Shown: positions 13,995 through 34,110 of the stretch, one piece after another
Numbering within the stretch: the first letter of the stretch is position 1
Layout: each line of letters begins with the position of its first letter
DNA from: Bacteroidales bacterium
Lineage (GTDB): Bacteria > Bacteroidota > Bacteroidia > Bacteroidales > UBA12077
Reading direction: 5' to 3'
Length of the DNA: 39,490 bases
Assembly (NCBI GenBank): GCA_027859205.1
Contig: JAQIBH010000037.1
Span: 1-39,490, forward strand
The notes under the pieces: generated by a model
What the model was told of the DNA's origin: nothing
What the model saw: only the letters and a program-made list of their open reading frames with translations
Database searches by the model: none
Translations under genes and position numbers: made by a program

Positions 13995-15035
13995 TTAAGG
14001 AATTATTTTAATTGCTGTTGATTTAAATGAAACCCAAGCTTTTGAGTTTTCCCGGAAATTAAATTTAACTAAAGATTCTTCTGAAATAACGACTGTTAAA
14101 TCAATACCAATATCAATAATAACTTCATGATTGCTTAAATATGGAATAATCTGTTTGATTTTTCCATGAAAATTATTTGTTGCGCTCGATTCGATTTTCT
14201 CATTTGATAAGATTATTTCTTCTCCTCGAATAATAATTTTACCCTTTTCGATTTGATCTTTATTCGAAACGTTAATTTCAAGTGTTCCATTGATGTTTGC
14301 GGTATTCGTTGGAGAAAATTGTGCATGAAAAAAGTTCTTAATCCCTGTAAAATTGGCAACAAAATCGTTGGCAGGCTTTTGAAATACTTCTTTTGTTAAT
14401 CCTTTTTGAATTATTTTGCCTTCGTGAATTACGGCTACTTTATTCGATAGTGCAATAGCTTCTTCGTAATCGTGGGTTACGTGTAAAATAGTAACTCCAC
14501 TTTGATTAATGTATCGAAGTAATTTTCGTAATCCGCCTTTTAATTGTACATCGAGCGATGCTAGTGGTTCATCCAAAAGTAAGCAATCGGGTTTTGAAAC
14601 CAGCATTCGAGCCAAAGCAACACGTTGTAATTCGCCTCCCGATAAATTTTGAGTATCTCTATTTAAAAGATGAGAAATATTTGTTAGTTCGGCATAAATA
14701 TTTATTAAATCCTCTTTTTCAATATTTGCGATCTTTTTACCCTTTATAGGATATGCAATATTTTGTTTTACATTTAAATGCGGAAATACAGAGAAATCCT
14801 GAAACACAATCCCTACTTTTCTTTTTTGTATTTTCTTATGCGTAATATCTTCATCGTTCAGAAAAACTTGGCCGGAACTAGGTTTAATTAAACCTGCAAT
14901 AATTTCAAGCAAGACAGTTTTTCCTACTCCTGATTTACCAAGTAAAACATAGTAGTCGCCTTTATCTAAATTAAGATTTATTTCTTTGAGCTGAAAATCG
15001 CCAAGTTTAACCGATATATCTTTTAGTTTAAGCAT
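13995..15035 (-). CDS. wtpC: Molybdate/tungstate ABC transporter ATP-binding protein
   Basis: A 346-residue ATPase from the ATG at 15035. The longer frame from 15125 would add a hydrophobic N-terminus that is only the shadow of the permease 3' end; MLKLKDISVKLG is the true fold start. Walker A is GKSGVGKT (33-40), Q-loop Q79, signature LSGGE (131-135), Walker B LLLDEP (152-157) and the switch VTHD. A C-terminal region (about 255-346) fits the TOBE oxyanion-binding domain of ModC/WtpC-type ATPases. It overlaps the permease gene by 8 bases and is the last gene of the operon. Mo or W specificity comes from wtpA. Confidence 0.9.
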   Translation of the reverse strand: MLKLKDISVKLGDFQLKEINLNLDKGDYYVLLGKSGVGKTVLLEIIAGLIKPSSGQVFLNDEDITHKKIQKRKVGIVFQDFSVFPHLNVKQNIAYPIKGKKIANIEKEDLINIYAELTNISHLLNRDTQNLSGGELQRVALARMLVSKPDCLLLDEPLASLDVQLKGGLRKLLRYINQSGVTILHVTHDYEEAIALSNKVAVIHEGKIIQKGLTKEVFQKPANDFVANFTGIKNFFHAQFSPTNTANINGTLEINVSNKDQIEKGKIIIRGEEIILSNEKIESSATNNFHGKIKQIIPYLSNHEVIIDIGIDLTVVISEESLVKFNFRENSKAWVSFKSTAIKIIP

Positions 15036-15816
15036 TCGCTGATTTCTTTTCTTTAGCAAGGGTTCGTAAAAGAATAAAAAATGCCAAACAAACAAGAATG
15101 AAAACAACAGAAACAGGACGAGCATATTTTAACCCAAACGACCCAAATCGTTCATATATTAATATAGGTGTAATCATTGGATGATATGCAACAATAATAA
15201 CAGCACCAAATTCGCTTAATCCACGAGCAAACATCATTATTAATCCCGATAGTATATTTTTCCAGGCAAGTGGCAACGAAATTGTAAAGAATACTCGAAT
15301 TGGAGATGCACCAAGATTTAAGGCTGTTTTTTCAAGTTTTACAGGAACGTTCTCGAAACCATCGCGAGCAGCATTTATTAAAAAGGGGATACTAACGAAA
15401 GCCATTGCTAAACCTATTCCTATTGGATGACCTACAAAATTAAGTCCAACCGACGAGGCAATTTGCCCCAATACCGAATCGCGAGAAATAAAACCTAAAA
15501 TAGCAATACCGGCTGCCGAATGCGGAATTACTATGGGTAAATCAACAATTCCATTTATAATATTCTTGAATCTAAAATTCATTCGAGAAAGAAAATAGGA
15601 TAGGGGAATTGCCCCAATAGCAAAAAATAATGTGGTAAGAAAAGACACTCGTAATGTTAGCCAAATACTGTCAAGAACTTCTGTGTCTTTTGTTGTTTCG
15701 AAAAGTTGTAATGGAGTTGTTGCCAAAAACATGCTAATAAGCGGACTAATAATAAAGAGTAATATTAGTCCGCCTAGTAAACTAAAAATTAAAGGTATAT
15801 TTTTGCTATTTGTCAT
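15028..15816 (-). CDS. wtpB: Molybdate/tungstate ABC transporter permease
   Basis: A 262-residue inner-membrane permease with about six hydrophobic segments. The cytoplasmic EAA loop that docks the ATPase is seen in EKTALNLGASPIRVFFTISL, and FARGLSEFGAVIIVAY is the signature stretch of ModB/WtpB/CysT permeases. The start codon follows the stop codon of the porin gene with no bases between, and its end overlaps wtpC by 8 bases, so the genes are translationally coupled. The call to Mo/W rather than sulfate rests on the WtpA-like binding protein in the same operon. Confidence 0.9.
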   Translation of the reverse strand: MTNSKNIPLIFSLLGGLILLFIISPLISMFLATTPLQLFETTKDTEVLDSIWLTLRVSFLTTLFFAIGAIPLSYFLSRMNFRFKNIINGIVDLPIVIPHSAAGIAILGFISRDSVLGQIASSVGLNFVGHPIGIGLAMAFVSIPFLINAARDGFENVPVKLEKTALNLGASPIRVFFTISLPLAWKNILSGLIMMFARGLSEFGAVIIVAYHPMITPILIYERFGSFGLKYARPVSVVFILVCLAFFILLRTLAKEKKSANA

Positions 15817-17061
15817 TTAATTTTTAAAGAATGTGGGTTTTACAGTAATCATTGTAAAAAAGTATTGTTGGATTCCTTCACCTTCGACACCTTTTATGTA
15901 TTCAAGTGTTTTTCCACCAAATAAAGTTGCATACCCAAACTGTAAATTAACAATGTCATTCATTTTCCAGCTTGCAATTAAATCAATCTCATTTGCTAAA
16001 AATTTATCTTGCTTTTCGCCTTCGTGAACATAATTATTAGCAAGAGCAAGATAATGATAATGAGCCGATAATTTCCATTTTTTTATTTTCGATAAATTTA
16101 TTTTCAAATATCCATCAAGCAAACCTGCACTTTTAGTTGTTCCTGGAGTACTGAAATAATCCATAATGCCATTATATGCATGTTTGGTACCATATAAAAT
16201 ATCAAAAGCATTATCGTCTAGATTTAGCGTATCAGTTAAATCGTTACCCGACATATATTCAAAACCAGCCGTAATATTTAACTTATCTGTGAAGTTATGT
16301 CCATAAATAATATTTGCAAAGTATGAATTTACATTTTGACCTTTTTTATTTTTTCCAAACTGATAAAAACCTCTTACTTCCATATTACTTGCCGATTTTT
16401 TATATTTTACCACACAACCTGTTGTCATTCTATAATAGTCGGTATTTGTTGTGCCTTCCTTTTGATAAGCATCTGTAATAGTTAAATTTGCAATTGATAA
16501 ATGTTCAAATTTCTTTTCAAGCCAGATTACATTTAAAAATTTATAATTACTGATAAGCTCTGAATAATCTGTACCGAAGTTGGATACTTTAGCCTGATTA
16601 AATGCTGTTAGCATCTTGAAATTTAACGATTCTTTATTGAAATCTAAAGTTATACCATCATGCGAAGAGCTTACTTGATTCCAGTTTGCTGCCGAAAATA
16701 ATCTTTTGTTATCGATATTAAATGACTGACGACCAGCAGTAACGTCCCAGTAGTCAGAGAGTTTGAGTTTGAAATAAGCTTCAAATAAACTTATTCCGGG
16801 ATCGTCGGCTTTAAGTTTTGATTCACCCCACACTCGATAATCCTGAATAGATAATCTAGAGCTTACGTTGTTGTACGTATGATTTAAATTTAATCGTGTA
16901 CGTTGAGTTACGAAATAAGCAGGATTTGAATCTTCTGTTTTTAAAGTGCTATAACCATCCCTAAATTCAAATCTTGGCCGATACTCAGCATCAATATTTA
17001 ATTGTGCTTTTGCTGTTATAATAATTATTATAAATGTGATGAATAATATACTTCGTTTCAT
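15817..17061 (-). CDS. Outer-membrane porin, alginate-export-like beta-barrel, in the wtp operon
   Basis: A 414-residue protein with a signal peptide (residues 1-20, ITAKAQ) and alternating beta-barrel sequence ending in an aromatic residue-rich strand. The start NIDAEYRPRFEFRDGY and TQRTRLNLNHTYNNVSSRLS, with DVTAGRQSFNIDNKRLFS, match the alginate_exp-type porin family. In pseudomonads the founding member exports alginate, but relatives act as general or specific diffusion porins. It lies between wtpA (58 bases upstream) and wtpB (abutting), so it is part of the transporter operon. I infer that it lets molybdate or tungstate cross the outer membrane; nothing in its sequence proves the ligand. 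Confidence 0.78.
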   Translation of the reverse strand: MKRSILFITFIIIIITAKAQLNIDAEYRPRFEFRDGYSTLKTEDSNPAYFVTQRTRLNLNHTYNNVSSRLSIQDYRVWGESKLKADDPGISLFEAYFKLKLSDYWDVTAGRQSFNIDNKRLFSAANWNQVSSSHDGITLDFNKESLNFKMLTAFNQAKVSNFGTDYSELISNYKFLNVIWLEKKFEHLSIANLTITDAYQKEGTTNTDYYRMTTGCVVKYKKSASNMEVRGFYQFGKNKKGQNVNSYFANIIYGHNFTDKLNITAGFEYMSGNDLTDTLNLDDNAFDILYGTKHAYNGIMDYFSTPGTTKSAGLLDGYLKINLSKIKKWKLSAHYHYLALANNYVHEGEKQDKFLANEIDLIASWKMNDIVNLQFGYATLFGGKTLEYIKGVEGEGIQQYFFTMITVKPTFFKN

Positions 17062-17119: not shown

Positions 17120-18076
17120 CTATTTTTTGGCATACTGTTTAAGTTGTTCTGGGATTGCAGTGTATGTATCAGAATATGATGGAACCATAGACGGCTGCCC
17201 ATTTTCTGCCATGATTTTTGTTCCACCGTGTTTCGATAAAATAAAATCTACAAATTTTATGGCTAGTTCTTTATTTGGAGCATTATCAGTAATTGTAATT
17301 CCATAAACCATAGCTTGTCCCGATTTGGTAATTGTGGTTCCTGGTTCTTTACCGGTAATATCAACTTTTGCATTTTTATAAAATTCTTTTAATTCGGGAT
17401 TTCTCATGTTAATTGAATCAGGCAAAATAACATATTTTAATCCATGTTGTTGAGCGACTGATCGATATAAGAATAAATAATCGATAGTATTTGATTCTAA
17501 TAATGCCAATAAATCAACCTCTTTTGGGCGAATGTATTCTTGATCTTTAGCTATAATTTTATCGGCAAATCCTGCAATATTATAGTATTGTTCAGATAGC
17601 TTTGAAGTTAATACAGCGCGGTAACCACAGGGATCTGAATTAGGATCAGCTCTGCCATAAAGTACATCATCTCGCAATAAAATTTCATGCCAATTTTTAT
17701 CGTTGATTTCGTTCGAATATTTCGACTTATCATGATAAACAATGGCCATTTCATTGCTCGCAAATTTTATGTTCCAGCTTGCATAATCAGGAATTAATAA
17801 TTCATCAATTATTGAATAATCGGCCGAAACCATAATGTCACAATCCTTATTTAAATCAGTAATTTTTCTGGCACATGTAACACTACCTGCCGATTCCAAT
17901 AATATTTCTACATTTTGGTTTTCTTTTACAAATTCATCTTTCATTTGTTTGAAAGGAACAGAAAGACTTCCGGCATGGAAAATGATGAGTTGATTGTTTT
18001 CTGAATTTTTATTGTTGCAACCAACTATGATTATAGCTGCAAGTACAATGCTTAGTAATAATGTAATTCGTTTCAT
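17120..18076 (-). CDS. wtpA: Molybdate/tungstate-binding lipoprotein of ABC transporter
   Basis: A 318-residue substrate-binding protein. The ATG at 18076 is chosen because MKRITLLLSIVLAAIIIVGC is a complete lipoprotein signal with Cys20; a frame from 18139 would only add 21 residues upstream and would read through the promoter. The WtpA branch signatures are FHAGSLSVPF, ESAGSVTCARKI, DIMVSADYSII and DPNSDPCGYRA, close to what I recall of the archaeal tungstate/molybdate protein WtpA, including the acidic residue (in DPNSDPCGYR) that helps octahedral oxyanion coordination in that family. It binds molybdate or tungstate in the periplasm. It is the first gene of the operon, 30 bases behind a -7 box inside a palindromic site shared with modE. 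Confidence 0.92.
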   Translation of the reverse strand: MKRITLLLSIVLAAIIIVGCNNKNSENNQLIIFHAGSLSVPFKQMKDEFVKENQNVEILLESAGSVTCARKITDLNKDCDIMVSADYSIIDELLIPDYASWNIKFASNEMAIVYHDKSKYSNEINDKNWHEILLRDDVLYGRADPNSDPCGYRAVLTSKLSEQYYNIAGFADKIIAKDQEYIRPKEVDLLALLESNTIDYLFLYRSVAQQHGLKYVILPDSINMRNPELKEFYKNAKVDITGKEPGTTITKSGQAMVYGITITDNAPNKELAIKFVDFILSKHGGTKIMAENGQPSMVPSYSDTYTAIPEQLKQYAKK

Positions 18077-18098: not shown

Positions 18099-18122
18099 GG
18101 ATATGCAAAAATAAACATATCG
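18099..18122 (-). promoter_or_regulatory. Palindromic operator overlapping the wtpA promoter (ModE-type site, copy 1)
   Basis: On the minus strand this reads CGATATG, ten bases containing the -7 box TATTTTTG (18106-18113), then CATATCC. GATATG and CATATC are perfect inverted arms. Twenty-two bases are identical to a site at the modE promoter (24894-24915). A repressor bound here would cover the -7 box. Binding by the ModE-like protein is inferred. Confidence 0.72.
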
Positions 18123-21884: not shown

Positions 21885-21908
21885 CGATATGCAAATATAT
21901 GCACATCG
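21885..21908 (-). promoter_or_regulatory. Palindromic site on the pruA promoter, related to the ModE-type operator
   Basis: On the minus strand the arms CGATGTGCA and TGCATATCG differ from a perfect 9-bp inverted repeat at one position, with a 6-base centre. The -7 box TATATTTG (plus-strand 21892-21899) lies inside. Over 24 bases it matches the wtpA site at 19 positions, including the whole right side TTTGCATATC. The leader to the ATG would be about 69 nucleotides. Confidence 0.55.
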
Positions 21909-22066: not shown

Positions 22067-24286
22067 TTATTTTTTGTTTTTCGACATTAACTGCTTTGGA
22101 ATATTAAGTTTATTTACAAATTCTTCATAACGTGGATCATCGTGTAATGGTTTCCATATTGGCATAACTGAAGCCCAAGGTACCCAAACGTGATGTGGTT
22201 CATAAGACAGCCATTTGAATGCTTCATCATTCTTACCTAATGCTCCATATAACACAGAAAGTCCTACAGCATTCCAACTGCTGACTCCAGAGGTTTCAAG
22301 GTTATTTAAAATTTTTTCTGCTTCATCACGGTGATTTGTTACTGCATAAGTATAGCCCAGTGGCCAACTAAACCATGGTGCTATCTGTGCTAGTTTCTCA
22401 TGTGCCTCAATTGCTTCATCTTCTTTACCCATGGCCAAATATGCCTCGCCAATTGCAAAAAGACCAAAAGGATTATCCTTCTGAATTTCGAATGATTTAT
22501 TTGCTTCCTTTATTGCATCTTCATACCTTCCATCATAACAATACAATGCTCCAAGAAGTGAAGTGTATAAAGGATTAAACGGGTCATACTTTTGGGCTAG
22601 TTTATGCTCTACAATTGCTTCTTCCATCCTTCCAAAAAGATAAAGAGCCCATGCATAATGATAATGAGCAATGTCTAAATTTGGATTTAACTCAATCGCT
22701 CGTCTAAAATATTTGTCTGCTTTTTCAAATTCCCATAATTGATATAAATATACTTCTGCCAATGCAGCATAAACTTCAGCCATTGAGGAATCAATCTTAA
22801 ATGCTTGAAATGCTGCAGCTTCAGCTTTTACAAGGGCATCCCCAGCATCGAGTGGTCCATGCGCAATTTCAAGATATCCTAGTGCCAGTCCTGCATATGC
22901 AAAAGGATCAGCCGGATCAATTCTAATAGCTTCATGAAGATATTCCAATCCTTTTTTAATTGTCTCTGGTTTAAGTTGGTTTACATTATACATTCCACGG
23001 AGATAAGCTTTATATGATTCTGGATTTACCTGCCTTGGTACTGGAAGTTTTTCTAAGTTTTCAGTAGTAAGCTTTAAATCAAGTTTTATGGCAATCTGTC
23101 CGGCAATATTGTTTTGTAATTTAAGAATATTACTCATATCACTTGAATATGTTCTGGCCCAAACTGCTCTTTCTTCAGGAAATGCCTGAATTAGTCTTAC
23201 TTGAAGTGTTATTGAGTCACCAGAGCCTACAACTGAAGCTTCCACCAGAAAGTCTACATTTACTTGCTGTGCAATTTCAGGAATTGACATTCGATCATTG
23301 CTTAATGCATTAACTGTTCGCCCACCTACAACACGAAGAGGCTTAACCTGACTTAATTTGCATAACTCAGTATTCAGAGCATCTTGCTGTCCCTTAACAA
23401 GATAATCTTGAGAAGAATTACCTGTAAGATTACTAAATGGTAATACAGCTATTGAAATTTCTGAATTTGACCTTTTCTTAGTATTATCTATGTTTGAAAT
23501 AGTAGCTTTTTGATTATTGATTATGATAGTATTATTAACTTTACCGGTACCTGAAACAAGAAAAAAATCGCCTGTTAAGGAAGTTGAAACCCAGGGTAAT
23601 TGATTACCACTGGAATTTTTATGCACAAAAGCCGTTACTTTTTGGAACATTTGAATAGCGGTTATGCCTGGTTCATTTACATATTCCAACATTCCCGAAG
23701 TAAACAATCCATTTTTCCCATGGCCATCAGATGCAGTACTTCCTGGAGAAGTGGCATATGCTATTACAGAACCTACTGGTGCAGTTATGCTTGCCAAGCC
23801 TCTTCCCCTGGCAGCTCTTGTCCAGCTTCGTTCGTATGGATTGTCGCGGCATGCATCAAGAATTATAATATTAATATTGTTTTTTGCATCCTCCATTTTA
23901 CCTAAAACTCTGTCGGCTCTAACACAATTATACTCAACATCTGATTCAGTATTTAATACTGCATCTACAGGAATTAGATAATTAAAACCTTTTGATTGTA
24001 CGCCATGGCCTGCATAGAAAAACAATCCTACGTCATAATTTACTAAGCTATTCCCGAAATCATCGATAGCTCTAGCCAATTCTTTTTGTCTAAGGTTTTC
24101 GTGCCTTATAACTTCAAACCCGATAGCCTCGAGCGCAATTTCCATGGATTTTGCATCATTTTCAGGATTACGTAGGGTGCTCATCGTGTAATTGCCATTT
24201 CCAATTACAAGTGCCAGGCGACGTTCTTGAGAATTTACAGAATAACAAAATAGAAGTGTGGCGAGTGCAACGATTATTTTTTTCAT
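22067..24286 (-). CDS. Secreted caspase-like (C14/metacaspase) protein with TolB-N-like and TPR domains
   Basis: A 739-residue protein. A signal peptide (1-20) is followed by a caspase fold (about 22-245) with the catalytic pair His94 in FFYAGHGV and Cys146 in IILDACRDNP; the start is RLALVIGNGNY. Residues about 278-400 (SIAVLPFSNLTGNSSQDYLV) resemble the TolB N-terminal/FlgO domain often found with adenylate-cyclase-type regulators. From about 430 to 700 there are seven or so TPR units (for example ALAEVYLYQLWEFEKADKYF). Prokaryotic caspase homologues cleave after basic or acidic residues; the target here is unknown. It stands alone between two promoter regions. The signal peptide suggests a periplasmic role. 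Confidence 0.85.
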   Translation of the reverse strand: MKKIIVALATLLFCYSVNSQERRLALVIGNGNYTMSTLRNPENDAKSMEIALEAIGFEVIRHENLRQKELARAIDDFGNSLVNYDVGLFFYAGHGVQSKGFNYLIPVDAVLNTESDVEYNCVRADRVLGKMEDAKNNINIIILDACRDNPYERSWTRAARGRGLASITAPVGSVIAYATSPGSTASDGHGKNGLFTSGMLEYVNEPGITAIQMFQKVTAFVHKNSSGNQLPWVSTSLTGDFFLVSGTGKVNNTIIINNQKATISNIDNTKKRSNSEISIAVLPFSNLTGNSSQDYLVKGQQDALNTELCKLSQVKPLRVVGGRTVNALSNDRMSIPEIAQQVNVDFLVEASVVGSGDSITLQVRLIQAFPEERAVWARTYSSDMSNILKLQNNIAGQIAIKLDLKLTTENLEKLPVPRQVNPESYKAYLRGMYNVNQLKPETIKKGLEYLHEAIRIDPADPFAYAGLALGYLEIAHGPLDAGDALVKAEAAAFQAFKIDSSMAEVYAALAEVYLYQLWEFEKADKYFRRAIELNPNLDIAHYHYAWALYLFGRMEEAIVEHKLAQKYDPFNPLYTSLLGALYCYDGRYEDAIKEANKSFEIQKDNPFGLFAIGEAYLAMGKEDEAIEAHEKLAQIAPWFSWPLGYTYAVTNHRDEAEKILNNLETSGVSSWNAVGLSVLYGALGKNDEAFKWLSYEPHHVWVPWASVMPIWKPLHDDPRYEEFVNKLNIPKQLMSKNKK

Positions 24287-24542: not shown

Positions 24543-24824
24543 ATGTTTGAGACAAATGAATATTTCGACGGAAAAGTAAAATCAATTGCTTTTGAAGCAA
24601 GTGAAGGTGCTACAACAATTGGTGTTATGGCTGAAGGAGAATATGAATTCGGAACATCTACAATTGAGTATATGACTGTTACATCTGGTGTAATGACAGT
24701 TCAATTGCCTGGCGAAACTGAGTGGAAGGTTTACAAAGAATTCGAAACTTTTATCGTGGCAAAAGATGTAAAGTTTAAAGTTAAAGTTGCCGGTGACACT
24801 TCTTATCGTTGCCTTTATAAATAA
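24543..24824 (+). CDS. ppnP: Pyrimidine/purine nucleoside phosphorylase (PpnP/YaiE, DUF1255)
   Basis: A 93-residue small cupin of normal length for the family. Signatures are NEYFDGKVKSIAF, GVMAEGEYEFGTSTIEYMTV, LPGETEWKVYKEFETFIV and the end VAGDTSYRCLYK. PpnP splits a wide range of nucleosides with phosphate into base and ribose-1-phosphate. The gene has its own promoter box and a terminator right behind it, so it is monocistronic and separate from modE downstream. Confidence 0.93.
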   Translation: MFETNEYFDGKVKSIAFEASEGATTIGVMAEGEYEFGTSTIEYMTVTSGVMTVQLPGETEWKVYKEFETFIVAKDVKFKVKVAGDTSYRCLYK

Positions 24825-24893: not shown

Positions 24894-24917
24894 CGATATG
24901 TTTATTTTTGCATATAG
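24894..24917 (+). promoter_or_regulatory. Palindromic operator and -7 box of the modE-like gene (ModE-type site, copy 2)
   Basis: CGATATG, ten bases holding the -7 box TATTTTTG (24903-24910), then CATATAG. The stretch ATATGTTTATTTTTGCATAT plus two bases on its left is identical to the wtpA site on the opposite strand. The ATG of the regulator follows 25 bases after the box, so the protein probably controls its own gene. Confidence 0.72.
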
Positions 24918-24934
24918 AACTTAACGTTAAAATT

Positions 24935-25312
24935 ATGGCAGGACCAAAAGGATCAAAATATTATGATGTTTTTCTGAAGTTTAAAGTGCGATTGGAAAAC
25001 ACAGATAAGGAAGGGATTTTAGGTGACGGGAAGTTTGAGTTAATTAATTTTATTGATCAGTTAGGGTCGCTAAAGGCGGCGGCCGATAAAACAGGTATAA
25101 GTTATAGAAAAGCGTGGGGAAATGTAAAAGATGCAGAGGAAAAATTGGGGTTTTTGCTTGTCGAGAAGCATAGAGGAGGAAAGCATGGAGGAAACTCTTT
25201 ACTAACTCATGAAGGGAAAAAATTAATTGAAGCGTATAAGGAATTATTGGTTGAATTCGATGATGCGATTTATCAGATAACAAAAAAGTTTTTTAATAAA
25301 GTGAATGAATAG
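24935..25312 (+). CDS. modE: ModE-type winged-helix transcriptional regulator, DNA-binding domain only
   Basis: A 125-residue protein from the ATG at 24935. An upstream frame from 24875 would start inside the terminator and read through the promoter, so it is rejected. Residues 31-95 form the LysR-like winged helix of ModE: GSLKAAADKTGISYRKAWGN, then DAEEKLG and the wing RGGKHGGNSLLTHEG. A C-terminal helix (97-122) would allow dimers. The two TOBE (molybdate-binding) domains of E. coli ModE, about 130 further residues, are absent, as in many ModE homologues. Its own promoter and that of wtpA carry the same 22-bp palindromic site, which makes it the likely regulator of Mo/W uptake. Confidence 0.85.
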   Translation: MAGPKGSKYYDVFLKFKVRLENTDKEGILGDGKFELINFIDQLGSLKAAADKTGISYRKAWGNVKDAEEKLGFLLVEKHRGGKHGGNSLLTHEGKKLIEAYKELLVEFDDAIYQITKKFFNKVNE

Positions 25313-29101: not shown

Positions 29102-29109
29102 TATTTTTG
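29102..29109 (+). promoter_or_regulatory. -7 promoter box of moeA
   Basis: TATTTTTG, 15 bases before the moeA ATG. Together with two bases on each side it matches the core of the wtpA/modE site (TTTATTTTTGCA), but the CGATATG and CATAT arms are missing, so it is probably a plain promoter. The leader would be about 11 nucleotides. Confidence 0.5.
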
Positions 29110-29124
29110 CACAAAATTTTAGAG

Positions 29125-30297
29125 ATGATTAGCATAGAAGAAGCATACGATATTGTATTACAAAATGCATATAAATTAGAAACTGAAAAAGTTCTATTTA
29201 CAGATTCATTAGGAAGAATTTTAGCTGAAGATGTAAAATCTGATATTGAGATGCCTCCATTTGATAAATCGGCAATGGATGGTTATGCATGCAGAAAGCA
29301 AGATGTTCATAATACACTAGAAATTATTGAAGTAATTCCGGCAGGTAAAATTCCCGAAAAAGAAATTGGTGCAAATCAATGTGCTAAAATAATGACTGGG
29401 GCGCCAATTCCAAAAGGAGCCGATTTTGTTGTTAAAGTGGAATCAACCGAAGAGTTTGAAAATAAGTTTGTAACAGTAATAAGCAAAGTTGGCAAACATA
29501 ATATTAGTTTCAGAGGCGAAGATGTAAAAGCTGGGCAACAGGTTTTGAATAAAGGCTTAGAAATAAAACCGGAACATATTGCTGTTTTTGCTTCCGTTGG
29601 ATACACTAATGTTTTGGTTGGGAAACAAGCCAAAGTTGGAATAATTTCAACAGGAGATGAATTGGTTGAACCTGATCAGAAACCTTCATTATCGCAAATA
29701 AGAAACAGTAATGCGTACCAGTTAATAGGGCAGGTTAAGGCCTGTGGTGCAATCGCTAATTATATAGGAATAGCAGAAGATACACCTGAAGATACATTCG
29801 ATAAAGTGAGTAAAGCTTTAACTGAAAACGATATTGTGTTATTGACCGGAGGTGTTTCAATGGGCTCTTTTGATTTTGTGCCAGAAGTTATGAAAAAAGC
29901 GGGAGTGGGAATATTGTTCGATTCAATTGCTGTTAAACCTGGAAAACCAACAACTTTTGGTATTGCTGGTAAAAAATTCTGTTACGGACTACCTGGAAAC
30001 CCGGTTTCTTCGTTTATGCAATTTGAGTTATTGGTTAAACCATTAATTTATAAATTAATGCATCGCACTACTAATCCTATTGAATTTCAGTTACCAATGG
30101 GAGTTAATTATAACAGAAGAACAACTGATCGTAAAGCTTATATTCCTGTTTATATTGAAAACAGTCAGGTTTTCCCTGTTGATTATCATGGTTCGGCTCA
30201 TTTGCATGCTTTAACATTGGCACATGGTTTTATTTCAATGGAGATAGGTAAAGAATTAATTAAAAAAGGAGAGTTTGTGCATGTTCGACAAATATAA
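29125..30297 (+). CDS. moeA: Molybdopterin molybdotransferase MoeA
   Basis: A 390-residue protein from the ATG at 29125; a TTG at 29107 would lie in the promoter box. Signatures are DIEMPPFDKSAMDGYA, MTGAPIPKGADFVV, FRGEDVKAGQQVL, IISTGDELVE, RNSNAYQL, LTGGVSMGSFDFVPEV and YGLPGNPVSSFMQFELLVKP, covering domains I-IV of MoeA. It inserts molybdate (or tungstate) into adenylylated molybdopterin. Its 3' end overlaps moaA by 17 bases. Confidence 0.96.
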   Translation: MISIEEAYDIVLQNAYKLETEKVLFTDSLGRILAEDVKSDIEMPPFDKSAMDGYACRKQDVHNTLEIIEVIPAGKIPEKEIGANQCAKIMTGAPIPKGADFVVKVESTEEFENKFVTVISKVGKHNISFRGEDVKAGQQVLNKGLEIKPEHIAVFASVGYTNVLVGKQAKVGIISTGDELVEPDQKPSLSQIRNSNAYQLIGQVKACGAIANYIGIAEDTPEDTFDKVSKALTENDIVLLTGGVSMGSFDFVPEVMKKAGVGILFDSIAVKPGKPTTFGIAGKKFCYGLPGNPVSSFMQFELLVKPLIYKLMHRTTNPIEFQLPMGVNYNRRTTDRKAYIPVYIENSQVFPVDYHGSAHLHALTLAHGFISMEIGKELIKKGEFVHVRQI

Positions 30298-31081
30298 TCG
30301 TAAAATAAACTATTTAAGAATATCTGTTACAGATCGTTGCAATTTGCGTTGTGTATATTGTATGCCCGAAGAAGGTGTTACAATACTGGATCATAAAGAA
30401 ATTTTAAATTTTAGTGAAATTGTTAGTGTAGCTAAAGCTGCTGTTGGTAAGGGCGTTGATAAAATCAGATTAACAGGAGGTGAACCATTGATTCGTAATT
30501 CAATTATTGATTTAGTTAAAATGATTGGTGACATAAAAGGAATTAAGGATTATGCAATGACTACTAACGGAATCTTTTTGGATAAATTTGCTCATGATCT
30601 GGCAAAAGCAGGTCTGCATAGAGTGAATATTAGTTTGGATACATTAAATCCCGAGAAGTATAAGCAATTAACTAGTGGTGGAAATATTCAGAAAGTATTT
30701 GATGGAATTCAAGCTGCAAAGAAAGCTGGCTTAGAGCCAATAAAAATTAACTGTGTTATAAAAGATAATAACCAAGAACCTGATGCTGTGGCAGTAACGA
30801 AATATTGTGAAGATAATAATTTACAGATTCGCTATATTAAAGAGATGGATTTGGAAAAAGGCGAGTTTTCAATTGTGCAAGGTGGCACTGGTGGCGATTG
30901 TGCTATTTGTAACAGATTGCGATTAACAGCCAATGGAATGATTAAACCTTGTTTATTTAGTGATTTAGAATTTAATGTTAGAAAATTAGGTGCTGAAAAA
31001 GCAATCGATGAAGCTATTGGAAATAAGCCATTAAGTGGTCATGTAAATCATACTGGCAAGTTTTATAATATTGGAGGATAA
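30281..31081 (+). CDS. moaA: GTP 3',8-cyclase MoaA, short form
   Basis: A 266-residue radical SAM enzyme that starts cofactor synthesis from GTP. The start ATG at 30281 has AAAGGAG at 30265-30271, one of the few clear ribosome sites here. Residues C20, C24 and C27 form the radical SAM cluster; LTGGEPLIR and MTTNGIFL follow. The second cluster motif is CAICNRLRLTANGMIKPCLF, and the chain ends in Gly-Gly, as MoaA requires. MoaA is usually about 320-340 residues; here the stretch between IRYIKEMD and the second cluster is only some 20 residues, so roughly 50-60 are missing. All catalytic motifs remain, so I read it as functional. Confidence 0.92.
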   Translation: MFDKYNRKINYLRISVTDRCNLRCVYCMPEEGVTILDHKEILNFSEIVSVAKAAVGKGVDKIRLTGGEPLIRNSIIDLVKMIGDIKGIKDYAMTTNGIFLDKFAHDLAKAGLHRVNISLDTLNPEKYKQLTSGGNIQKVFDGIQAAKKAGLEPIKINCVIKDNNQEPDAVAVTKYCEDNNLQIRYIKEMDLEKGEFSIVQGGTGGDCAICNRLRLTANGMIKPCLFSDLEFNVRKLGAEKAIDEAIGNKPLSGHVNHTGKFYNIGG

Positions 31082-31090
31082 TACTAGTAT

Positions 31091-31155
31091 AAAGTTTCAA
31101 GTTCCTAGTACTTAGTTTCATTAACTTTGAACTTAGTACTTAAAACTAAGAACTA
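31091..31155. repeat. Imperfect inverted/direct repeat between moaA and moaC
   Basis: Two copies of a TAGTACTTA core (31107-31115 and 31134-31142) are flanked by AGTTTC/GAACT-type arms, so the segment can fold on itself. A TAnnTTTG box (TAACTTTG, 31122-31129) lies in its centre and might drive moaC. Such AGTACTTAG elements look like a dispersed family, but only one is in the window. Confidence 0.5.
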
Positions 31156-31182
31156 TTTTAAATTTGATAAAATTTAAAAGTT

Positions 31183-31635
31183 ATGGGAAAATTAAGTCAT
31201 GTTGATGAAAAGGGAAAGGCCAATATGGTTGATGTTGGTGCTAAGGATGATCAGAAACGTGTAGCCAAAGCTACAGGACATATAACCCTAAATACCGAAA
31301 CAATTCAATTAATAAAGGATAACTCCATGAAAAAAGGAGATGTGCTTACGATTGCTGAAATTGCCGGTATACAAGGTGGTAAACGTACAAGTGAATTAAT
31401 TCCATTATGTCATCCTTTACAAATTACAAAGCTTGATGTAAAAGCTACAATTGATAAAACGGGAGTTCGAATAAATTCTGAAGCTCATTGCATTGGTAAA
31501 ACCGGAATTGAAATGGAAGCACTAACTGCTGTATCGGTAGCTCTGCTTACTGTTTATGATATGTGTAAAGCAATTGATAAGCAAATGAATGTGGATGAAG
31601 TTAAGCTTATTGAAAAAACTAAAACAAATTTATAG
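31183..31635 (+). CDS. moaC: Cyclic pyranopterin monophosphate synthase MoaC
   Basis: A 150-residue protein, near the usual 155-160. Signatures are SHVDEKGKANMVDVGAKDDQ, KKGDVLTIAEIAGIQGGKRT, LIPLCHPLQITKLDV, CIGKTGIEMEALTAVSVALL and TVYDMCKAID, with the active-site Lys-Gly-Asp and Met-Glu-Ala-Leu-Thr segments intact. It converts the MoaA product into cyclic pyranopterin monophosphate. It lies 101 bases after moaA, with a repeat between them. Confidence 0.96.
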   Translation: MGKLSHVDEKGKANMVDVGAKDDQKRVAKATGHITLNTETIQLIKDNSMKKGDVLTIAEIAGIQGGKRTSELIPLCHPLQITKLDVKATIDKTGVRINSEAHCIGKTGIEMEALTAVSVALLTVYDMCKAIDKQMNVDEVKLIEKTKTNL

Positions 31636-31710
31636 TGTCATTCCGGCCGAAGAGCCGGAATCTTTTTTAATTAAATTCCTGATCTCCAATTCGTTTTGTC
31701 AGAAATGACA
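31636..31710. repeat. TGTCATTC...GAATGACA palindromic repeat, copy 4, doubling as moaC terminator
   Basis: Starts with TGTCATTCCGG directly after the moaC stop and ends CAGAAATGACA, with one mismatch in the outer arms. The left inner hairpin (TTCCGGC 31641-31647, GCCGGAA 31654-31660) is followed by TCTTTTTT, a standard terminator form in the moaC direction. Confidence 0.8.
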
Positions 31711-31712
31711 GT

Positions 31713-32636
31713 TTATTTTAAACTTAGTATTGCTTTCCCCTTTCTTATACCATCAACTTTACAACTTATATTTTTCGAAATTGGGTTTGTAAGAATCACT
31801 TCGTTTGATGATCTAACTTTTGTTTCAATACCATAAATATCTTCAACAATTATTACATTTTCTACTTTTCCTAAAGGATTAGTCTCAAAAATTGTTTGCA
31901 GATATTTAAACGAATAAGTTTTACCTATTTCATAAAACGGATGCACAGGCTCTATTTTTAAATGACCATCAGTATTATATTTTGTGACCGTGCATTCTAC
32001 TTCTTGTCCTATTTTTAGACCATAATGTTCGTACAATTCTTTTTTCAATGAATATGAGCTATTATACTGATCTTTAAATATATAATATTCGATTTTTTCT
32101 TCTAGTTCTTTTATTTCATCTAAAATAAAGATATATTTTTTACCAATTTCCAATGATATAATTGATTCCTTAGATTCCGGAAGAGCTAAAAATAACTGCC
32201 CTTTCTTAATTCTAAGCACTTCACATTTTATTGTTTTTAACTTCTGATTCTGACTTATACTTTTGGGTAAAGAACATGCTATTTCAATATCAAATTGATC
32301 TTTCACCAATGCTGCTTTTTCCTTTTCTCCAACGGAATTTAACTGATCAATGATTTTAATAAATTCAAAATTGCAAATATCACCTTCTTTATATATCGGA
32401 TTTTCGGGTTCTAAATAAATTTTACCACTACAATTTATTTTGTCAATCTTACAATTGATTTCCTTCCCGATTTGAAGATCATAATGAGTGTAGCTAATTG
32501 CTTTTAGAAGATGCTTCCCTCCAAATCTGTTTTCAAGAATGAAAAACGATTCTTCAGTTCCCGGAATTTCAGTAAATCCAACAACTTTAAATTGATGATT
32601 TTCTCCTTCTTTAAATTTATATTGATTATCATGCAT
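31713..32636 (-). CDS. Unrecognised protein with internal duplication of OB/S1-like beta units
   Basis: A 307-residue protein I cannot name. A TTG at 32648 would start inside the promoter box; the ATG at 32636 is preferred. It is beta-rich, without signal peptide, membrane span or catalytic motif, so cytoplasmic. Residues 53-84 (LQIGKEINCKIDKINCSGKI, then YLEPENPIYKEG) match 206-238 (LKIGQEVECTVTKYNTDGHL, then KIEPVHPFYEIG), and the sections behind them also align (YKEGDICNFEFIKIID with YEIGKTYSFKYLQTIF; CEVLRIKKGQLFLAL with CKVDGIRKGKAILSL). The plan is therefore A-B-A-B, and each unit resembles an OB or S1 fold. It lies opposite to and between moaC and the MOSC genes. A nucleic-acid role is a guess from the fold. 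Confidence 0.65.
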   Translation of the reverse strand: MHDNQYKFKEGENHQFKVVGFTEIPGTEESFFILENRFGGKHLLKAISYTHYDLQIGKEINCKIDKINCSGKIYLEPENPIYKEGDICNFEFIKIIDQLNSVGEKEKAALVKDQFDIEIACSLPKSISQNQKLKTIKCEVLRIKKGQLFLALPESKESIISLEIGKKYIFILDEIKELEEKIEYYIFKDQYNSSYSLKKELYEHYGLKIGQEVECTVTKYNTDGHLKIEPVHPFYEIGKTYSFKYLQTIFETNPLGKVENVIIVEDIYGIETKVRSSNEVILTNPISKNISCKVDGIRKGKAILSLK

Positions 32637-32645
32637 AGTTAATTG

Positions 32646-32653
32646 CAAAAATA
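32646..32653 (-). promoter_or_regulatory. -7 box of the OB-repeat gene, nearly touching its start codon
   Basis: TATTTTTG on the minus strand ends nine bases before the ATG at 32636. Initiation 4-5 bases downstream would leave a leader of about five nucleotides. Confidence 0.5.
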
Positions 32654-32736
32654 CCTTTTTTAGAGTTTAAACTATAAATATATCCATGTAAAAAGCTTTG
32701 TTTTTATTACTTTTACAGTCCAAAAAATATAATTCA

Positions 32737-33183
32737 ATGAGCAATATAAAAGTACTTTCAGTAAATATTTCAGAAGAAAAAGGAGTAATTAAAAAACCTG
32801 TTGATAGTATTAGTATTACTGAAACTGGTATAGAGAACGATGCGCATGCAGGTGATTGGCATAGGCAGATAAGTTTATTGGCTAAAGAAAGCATTGATAA
32901 ATTTGAAGAAGTGCTTGGTAGGAAATTGAAGTTTGGCGAATTTGCAGAAAACATAACAACCGAAGGCATTACTCTTTATACAATGAAACCAGGCGATAAA
33001 CTTAATATAGCCGATGTGGAATTGGAAGTAACTCAGATAGGGAAAAAGTGTCATGGTGATGGCTGTGCTATTTTTAGCCAGGTTGGGAAATGTGTAATGC
33101 CTAAAGAAGGAATTTTTGCTAAAGTTATAAAAACAGGTAAAATATTGCCTGGAGATGGAATTATTTATACTTCACAAGAATAA
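32737..33183 (+). CDS. MOSC-domain protein
   Basis: A 148-residue stand-alone MOSC domain from the ATG at 32737; the longer frame from 32698 only adds upstream non-coding sequence (FLLLLQSKKYN). Signatures are GIENDAHAGDWHRQISLL, FGEFAENITTEGI, PGDKLNIADVELEVTQIGKK and MPKEGIFAKV. The conserved MOSC cysteine is present (C105, with C110 and C119 near). MOSC domains bind the molybdenum cofactor or carry sulfur to it. It is followed after 9 bases by a gene for a second MOSC domain fused to MogA. Confidence 0.9.
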   Translation: MSNIKVLSVNISEEKGVIKKPVDSISITETGIENDAHAGDWHRQISLLAKESIDKFEEVLGRKLKFGEFAENITTEGITLYTMKPGDKLNIADVELEVTQIGKKCHGDGCAIFSQVGKCVMPKEGIFAKVIKTGKILPGDGIIYTSQE

Positions 33184-33192
33184 TTAAATATT

Positions 33193-34110
33193 ATGATTGA
33201 AGGAAAGGTTATATCGGTTAGTTTGTCATCAGAGCGCGGTCCTAAAAAGCCAGAAAATAAACTGGAACTTAATTCAAAAGGTATTGTAGGAGATGTTCAC
33301 TCTGGTACCAGTCGACAGATTAGTATTATTGACATTTCACATATAATTCGATTTAGAGAATTGACCAACGCTCGTGATACTGAGTTCGGCGAATTTGCCG
33401 AGAATATTACTGCAGAAGGATTACACGATATTGATTTTCAGACATTCGATCAATTGCTTATTGGCGATTCAATTTTAGAAGTTACACAGGTAGGAAAACC
33501 TTTTTATGATCAGTTTAGGGAATTAGGTAATTACGTGATGCCTCGTGTTGGTGTATTTTGCCGTGTAAAAAAAGAAGGCATAATTAAACTTAACGATAAA
33601 ATAGAATATATCCCCAAAGTTTATAAAGCCTTAATCGTTACATTAAGCGATAGAGCAAGTGCAGGTGAATATGAAGATCGAAGTGGTCCAAAGATATTTG
33701 AATTATTAGATTCATATTTGAAAAAGTTGCACATAAAATATCAAATTGATAAAAAAATTATTCCTGATCATAGTGAAAAGCTGAGAGATGTAATGACAAA
33801 AGCGAGACAGGATAAATACGATATTATAATTACCACTGGAGGAACAGGAATCGGGCCACGAGATATTACCTTAGAAACTGTGCAACCAATGTTGGATAAA
33901 GAAATTCCAGGTGTAATGGAAATGATTCGAATGAAATATGGACAAGAAAAACCAAACGCGCTATTAAGCAGAGGAGTTGCTGGAGTAATGGGACAAAGCT
34001 TGGTTTATACCTTACCAGGCAGTGTAAAAGCTGTTCAAGAATACATGACAGAAATTTTAAAAACAATGCAACATTTAATATTTATGTTGCATGGAATTGA
34101 TTCACATTAA
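33193..34110 (+). CDS. MOSC domain fused to MogA/MoaB molybdopterin adenylyltransferase
   Basis: A 305-residue fusion. Residues 1-140 are a MOSC domain (GIVGDVHSGTSRQISII, FGEFAENITAEGL, GDSILEVTQVGKP), but the position of the conserved Cys reads KPFYDQF, without Cys. Residues 145-300 are a MogA/MoaB domain: LIVTLSDRASAGEYEDRSGP, IIITTGGTGIGPRDIT, PGVMEMIR, SRGVAGVMGQSLVYTLPGS. This half adenylylates molybdopterin before metal insertion by MoeA. The first half may be a structural or binding remnant. It is co-transcribed with the upstream MOSC gene. Confidence 0.92.
   Translation: MIEGKVISVSLSSERGPKKPENKLELNSKGIVGDVHSGTSRQISIIDISHIIRFRELTNARDTEFGEFAENITAEGLHDIDFQTFDQLLIGDSILEVTQVGKPFYDQFRELGNYVMPRVGVFCRVKKEGIIKLNDKIEYIPKVYKALIVTLSDRASAGEYEDRSGPKIFELLDSYLKKLHIKYQIDKKIIPDHSEKLRDVMTKARQDKYDIIITTGGTGIGPRDITLETVQPMLDKEIPGVMEMIRMKYGQEKPNALLSRGVAGVMGQSLVYTLPGSVKAVQEYMTEILKTMQHLIFMLHGIDSH

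Follow-up and report, generated by a model that had tools for sequence, protein, structure and literature searches.

Why do a gene for a ModE-like DNA-binding protein and the first gene of a tungstate/molybdate uptake operon stand behind the same 22 bases? The question was raised by contig JAQIBH010000037.1 (GenBank assembly GCA_027859205.1) of a Bacteroidales bacterium (GTDB lineage Bacteroidota; Bacteroidia; Bacteroidales; UBA12077), of which positions 1 to 39,490 were analyzed as one stretch, here called the window. The element CGATATGTTTATTTTTGCATAT is present twice, at 24894-24915 (plus strand) and 18101-18122 (minus strand), identical over 22 bases and set in unlike flanks (gaag before and agaac after the site at modE; taat and cctaa at wtpA). 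Shuffled sequence is expected to hold 0.02 matches to CGATATG-N10-CATAT, against the 2 found in the window. The arms GATATG/CATATC are perfect at wtpA, and the modE site differs at the last base (CATATA). At both genes the −7 box TATTTTTG begins 9 bases into the site, and the start codon follows the box after 24 bases at modE (ATG 24935) and 29 bases at wtpA (ATG 18076). A preliminary description of the window had reported the two copies and their diverging flanks, the shape with a −7 box inside, start codons about 25 to 30 bases behind the box and perfect arms at wtpA, and all of this was recovered. Scanning the window with the full 24-letter palindrome CGATATG-N10-CATATCG yielded a third copy, upstream of an aldehyde dehydrogenase gene. 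Its −7 box (TATATTTG) is offset as in the other two. This wider operator of 24 bp has the 22-bp element as its core; the features concerned are as follows.

24894..24917, plus strand: modE operator CGATATGTTTATTTTTGCATATAG, 13/14 arm bases; kept at 18/19 genus modE loci
24903..24910, plus strand: −7 box TATTTTTG within the modE operator; fits TAnnTTTG
18099..18122, minus strand: wtpA operator CGATATGTTTATTTTTGCATATCC, 13/14 arm bases; kept in relatives
18106..18113, minus strand: −7 box TATTTTTG within the wtpA operator
21885..21908, minus strand: third operator CGATGTGCATATATTTGCATATCG, 13/14 arm bases, with −7 box TATATTTG inside (21899-21892); 15 other genus loci alike
24935..25312, plus strand: modE-like gene, 125 amino acids; DNA-binding winged helix only, without TOBE domain
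17120..18076, minus strand: wtpA, tungstate/molybdate-binding protein, 318 amino acids from ATG 18076; NCBIfam PRK04168, 384.6 bits, above the cut-off of 355
15817..17061, minus strand: outer-membrane beta-barrel (Alginate_exp family) inside the wtp operon; PF13372, 1.6e-17
15028..15816, minus strand: wtpB permease; NF040839, 275 bits (cut-off, 340); PF00528
13995..15125, minus strand: wtpC ATPase with TOBE domain; NF040840, 335.7 bits; PF00005, PF03459
20191..21819, minus strand: aldehyde dehydrogenase behind the third operator; PF00171, 2e-97

The minus-strand operon thus runs wtpA, beta-barrel gene, wtpB and wtpC; the true start of wtpC probably lies about 30 codons inside the open reading frame, where the NF040840 match begins (residue 31). 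The Alginate_exp-type beta-barrel gene sits between wtpA and wtpB, and frames resembling it come after wtpA in G015 (L130:1945-3183) and G040 (L160). The aldehyde dehydrogenase is presumably a 1-pyrroline-5-carboxylate dehydrogenase, its specificity judged from sequence. A caspase-like/TPR gene (22067-24286, minus strand) stands between it and ppnP (24543-24824); in relatives, aldehyde dehydrogenase and ppnP are divergent neighbors with the operator between them. The molybdenum cofactor genes of the window (29107-34110; moeA from 29107) carry no operator site. A Moco/Wco riboswitch in the leaders was rejected, the window having no Rfam match at gathering score.

The preliminary description had proposed looking for the motif at unrelated promoters, for its conservation at modE and wtpA and for its enrichment before Mo/W genes, and each search came out in its favor. 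Across 20 genus genomes, the core CGATATG-N10-CATAT gave 86 matches, compared with 3 for a reversed control pattern. A spacer scan from N6 to N14 in 19 genus genomes returned 160 matches, of which 84 had N10, the only enriched spacer; the other eight averaged fewer than 10 each. Both controls rule out a chance origin. Counts in 39 genomes outside the genus were near background (24 matches versus 16 for the control). In the organism's own genome, exactly five sites have at most one mismatch over the 14 arm letters, and all five precede modE, wtpA, aldehyde:ferredoxin oxidoreductase loci or the modE-linked aldehyde dehydrogenase; sites with two mismatches (5 further, against 3 for the control) were close to control. 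An exact-arm match at C189:1315 of the same genome was set aside as background, lying inside a 1286-residue reading frame with only 12/14 arm bases. The modE loci of the genus carry a site with at least 11/14 arm bases in 18 of 19 cases, and its wtp operons have the site too. CGATATG-N10-CATATCG is almost certainly a real operator.

Aldehyde:ferredoxin oxidoreductases (AORs) are tungsten-type enzymes. Besides the three sites in the window, the own genome has one at C113:6797, preceding a 717-residue AOR (PF02730, PF01314), and one at C7:3709, preceding an operon for a Tat-type iron-sulfur protein and a 606-residue AOR; two more of its AOR genes (C153, C160) have no close site (at most one mismatch) on their contigs. 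Among 70 distinct genus sites with context, a count that leaves out G013:C55:287816 and C63:214037, 66 precede modE, wtpA, AORs (three types, of 717, 599 and about 606 residues), aldehyde dehydrogenases (two) or lipoprotein/TonB-receptor genes linked to wtp or modE. A keyword script had labeled 59 of the 70; seven of the 11 that it classed as "other" turned out to belong to known targets (four at the 717-residue AOR, one at the Tat iron-sulfur gene and two at a 300-residue lipoprotein). Of the remaining four, three fall within reading frames and one precedes the gene of a 247-residue membrane protein. The neighbors opposite the 717-residue AOR gene are a DUF364/DUF4213 "heavy-metal chelation" gene and a ThiF-family gene (L095:2202-3590, minus strand), and the operator falls in the intergenic region that they share with it. 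Promoters of the 717-residue AOR also share a further conserved block behind the operator, ATTTAAGTCATTTTATACTTT (L095:4022-4045 and orthologues), possibly another regulatory element.

In the wtp operons of the genus, the site precedes either wtpA or, where the operon is longer, its first gene. In G007 and G015 it is followed by genes for two lipoproteins, for a TonB-dependent receptor (with PF00593 in G007) and for a 350-residue protein, and then by wtpA, wtpB and wtpC. These leading genes (L114:3281-8286 and L130:4307-9310, both minus strand) are candidates for an outer-membrane system that imports tungstate/molybdate. In G007, G011 and G017, a second lipoprotein gene shortly behind modE has its start codon covered by a perfect 24-bp palindrome and, where read, a TonB receptor after it; such overlaps were seen at L111:10279, L115, L125:5457, L133 and L152. 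The first codons (ATGAAA...GCATATCG) double as operator, and this position within the first signal-peptide codons may explain the conserved M-K-x-x-A-Y-R start.

We then consider what binds these sites. Pfam assigned only HTH_1 (PF00126) to the 125-residue protein, and the NCBIfam ModE repressor domain TIGR00637 matched it (1.2e-20, 73.4 bits) below the curated cut-off of 98.5. In a profile search against the PDB, ModE structures ranked first (2ijl, 1.4e-19; 1b9m, 2.9e-15; also 1o7l), and all top eight Foldseek matches of the predicted model (pLDDT, 81.8) were ModE, including the single-domain Agrobacterium protein 2ijl. A plasmid search with the protein gave remote ModE/LysR-type matches only. 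Of the features that define ModE, the N-terminal winged helix homologous to ModE is present; the C-terminal TOBE domains and a score above the TIGR00637 cut-off are absent. The protein qualifies as a stand-alone ModE DNA-binding domain (the HTH-only kind), and, judged by its sequence, the putative regulator consists of a ModE-type winged helix and lacks the usual metal-sensing half.

The published E. coli ModE consensus is ATCGNTATATA-N6-TATATANCGAT (PMC545781). It reduces to CGNTAT-N12-ATANCG with a CG-to-CG span of 24 bp, as in these Bacteroidales sites, and the reduced form fits the 79 sites that we aligned. The preliminary description had pointed to such a likeness in the arm, and it holds, the spacing being equal as well. 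The Bacteroidales system further resembles that of E. coli (1b9m, 1o7l) in its winged helix and in having operators before Mo/W uptake genes (wtpA and the longer wtp operons in the genus; also in G040 and G057). Unlike E. coli ModE, the protein has no TOBE domains; the inner arm base is G/C rather than part of a TATA run; and the targets are wtp, AOR and TonB-receptor genes, whereas the moa/moe genes of the window have no site. HTH-only ModE proteins are known from Desulfovibrio and D. psychrophila, with predicted operators before Mo uptake genes and a way of sensing molybdenum stated as unclear (PMC545781). These proteins and that of Agrobacterium (2ijl) share the stand-alone DNA-binding domain with ours, but the Desulfovibrio sites (CGGTCACG-N14-CGTGACCG) are far from the E. 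coli consensus (PMC545781), whereas the Bacteroidales sites keep the E. coli geometry. An HTH-only protein paired with E. coli-type sites suggests a protein that works like a ModE. TaoR, from a 2019 study as summarized in PMC11980592, regulates a tungsten-containing AOR and Mo/W transport and likewise ties both into one regulon; as summarized there, it has HTH-17 and PBP-like domains, and the 125-residue protein, a member of the ModE winged-helix group, lacks both.

A protein of this build might regulate its own gene constitutively, setting basal levels with no response to metal, a reading compatible with binding to the operator. It would suit both the missing TOBE domain and the lack of any stand-alone TOBE/Mop sensor in 19 genus genomes (4 without any TOBE match, some of them incomplete), where TOBE matches were confined to ABC ATPase-sized or cut-short frames. 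Yet the targets comprise metal uptake and a set of metal enzymes, for which a metal-blind switch would be of little use, and HTH-only ModE with operators at Mo genes is also predicted in Desulfovibrio (PMC545781); we regard metal blindness as unlikely. The nature of the targets leads us to expect a metal response, with tungstate or molybdate as the signal.

The distribution of sites and regulator bears on whether the ModE-like protein is the one that binds. Relatives of other families keep the arms around different centers. G040, whose ModE is 58% identical, has CGATATGTATTATTGAACATAACG at modE and CGATATGTTTGCAATTGCATATCT at wtpA; G048 has CGATAGGAATGCAATTGCATATCA ahead of a modE-wtpA pair; L189 (4572_117) and L190 carry CAATATG-N10-CATAACG at modE; G057 has sites at wtpA and AOR and G050 at AOR. 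Still more distant modE genes (G051, G029, G055, L191 and L192) have no such site, and within the genus the modE of G010 lacks a good site and those of G015 and G009 are weak. Five genomes of a sister genus in the same family gave 2 core matches (control, 1); wtpA was present, modE was not detectable and no wtpA was preceded by a site. The site thus tracks modE, in that the genus with modE has sites and the sister genus without it has none at wtpA, which supports the regulator link. Sites were also present where modE was not detected, in G019 (83% complete) and in G036 (another family, 99% complete), the latter with perfect sites. The two perfect 24-bp palindromes of G036 are at C10:1771 (L156) and C270:4755 (L175), one between AOR-like and aldehyde dehydrogenase-like frames and the other near a contig end.

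Those two genomes, together with the score below the TIGR00637 cut-off and a protein-operator pairing that is drawn from sequence, leave some room for a true operator bound by another transcription factor, with the modE-like gene merely one of its targets. The arms and 24-bp span, however, match the E. coli ModE consensus, and the site tracks modE across the genus and sister genus, lies before modE itself in additional families or lineages, and accompanies a protein whose closest solved relatives are ModE. We consider a different binding protein distinctly improbable.

Returning to the ModE-like protein, the way its predicted sites lie on the promoters may indicate how it acts. The 79 aligned sites show hardly any variation in the first CG, TATG and CATA and somewhat more in the last T, C and G; the center follows the promoter, reading TnTATnTTTG where a −7 box lies inside and unlike sequences elsewhere. 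TAnnTTTG is the −7 consensus published for Bacteroides (PMC7366714). Sites at wtpA, modE and aldehyde dehydrogenase contain the box. At lipoprotein-led wtp operons the box ends four bases before the site, so that the site would cover the transcript start; the third AOR operon resembles this placement, with a less clear −7 box. In 14/16 cases at the 717-residue AOR, 65 bases separate the start of the site from the start of the −7 box downstream, which would put the site center about 65 bp before the transcript start. That the copies share nothing but a Bacteroidota promoter (TATTTTTG common to both, AT-rich flanks the rest) would agree with the equal box offset in the window copies, that of aldehyde dehydrogenase included, but is ruled out as a full explanation and scarcely credible, because the arms are still there when the −7 box is in another place (some 65 bp downstream at the 717-residue AOR, outside the site at lipoprotein operons), relatives keep them around centers without any box, and the reversed pattern gave 3 matches against 86.

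An operator on the −7 box or transcript start at uptake genes suggests repression, and one at a fixed upstream distance from the 717-residue AOR suggests activation. Published ModE is a repressor of modABCD and an activator of moa (PMC11980592), and this dual role fits the two site positions found here. A dual sign of regulation is plausible, and we lean slightly toward it.

We propose that a dimer of the neighboring 125-residue ModE-type protein binds CGATATG-N10-CATATCG and would thereby control a tungsten/molybdenum regulon. The dimer would occupy the −7 box of modE, wtpA and aldehyde dehydrogenase and, in the longer wtp operons of relatives, the transcript start; promoters so covered would be shut when metal is plentiful. 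At the 717-residue AOR, a dimer at fixed upstream distance could help RNA polymerase and probably activates. Against the proposal count the TIGR00637 score under cut-off, the absent TOBE domains, some modE genes without a site, the site-free molybdenum cofactor genes of the window, and the sites of G019 and G036 without detected modE. On balance, the ModE-like protein very probably binds the operator and runs the regulon. The preliminary description had pictured an autoregulated Mo/W regulon with its repressor on the promoter; the regulon stands, with predicted sites at modE, wtpA and AOR, but it would extend beyond uptake and autoregulation, and the promoter is not covered at the 717-residue AOR, where the site lies upstream.

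In this uncultured Bacteroidales group, the ModE-like protein seems to govern tungstate/molybdate uptake and tungsten-type enzymes as well as its own gene. ModE regulons have been described mainly in proteobacteria with a full molybdate-sensing protein, and no description of one in Bacteroidota was found in the literature searched. A fuller picture, possible although on the doubtful side, is that a TOBE-less ModE represses wtp and TonB-dependent W/Mo import, activates the tungsten AOR and shuts metal-free aldehyde dehydrogenases when tungsten enzymes can work, with the metal state relayed by a partner. If true, TonB-dependent import of tungstate/molybdate and tungsten-dependent swapping of aldehyde-oxidizing enzymes would both be new to our knowledge. 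A ModE without sensor domains, with E. coli operator geometry and predicted sites at tungsten-type enzymes, offers a testable case of metal sensing without TOBE; the sites point out candidate genes for outer-membrane tungstate/molybdate import, and the motif can serve in searches for W/Mo genes of uncultured Bacteroidales.
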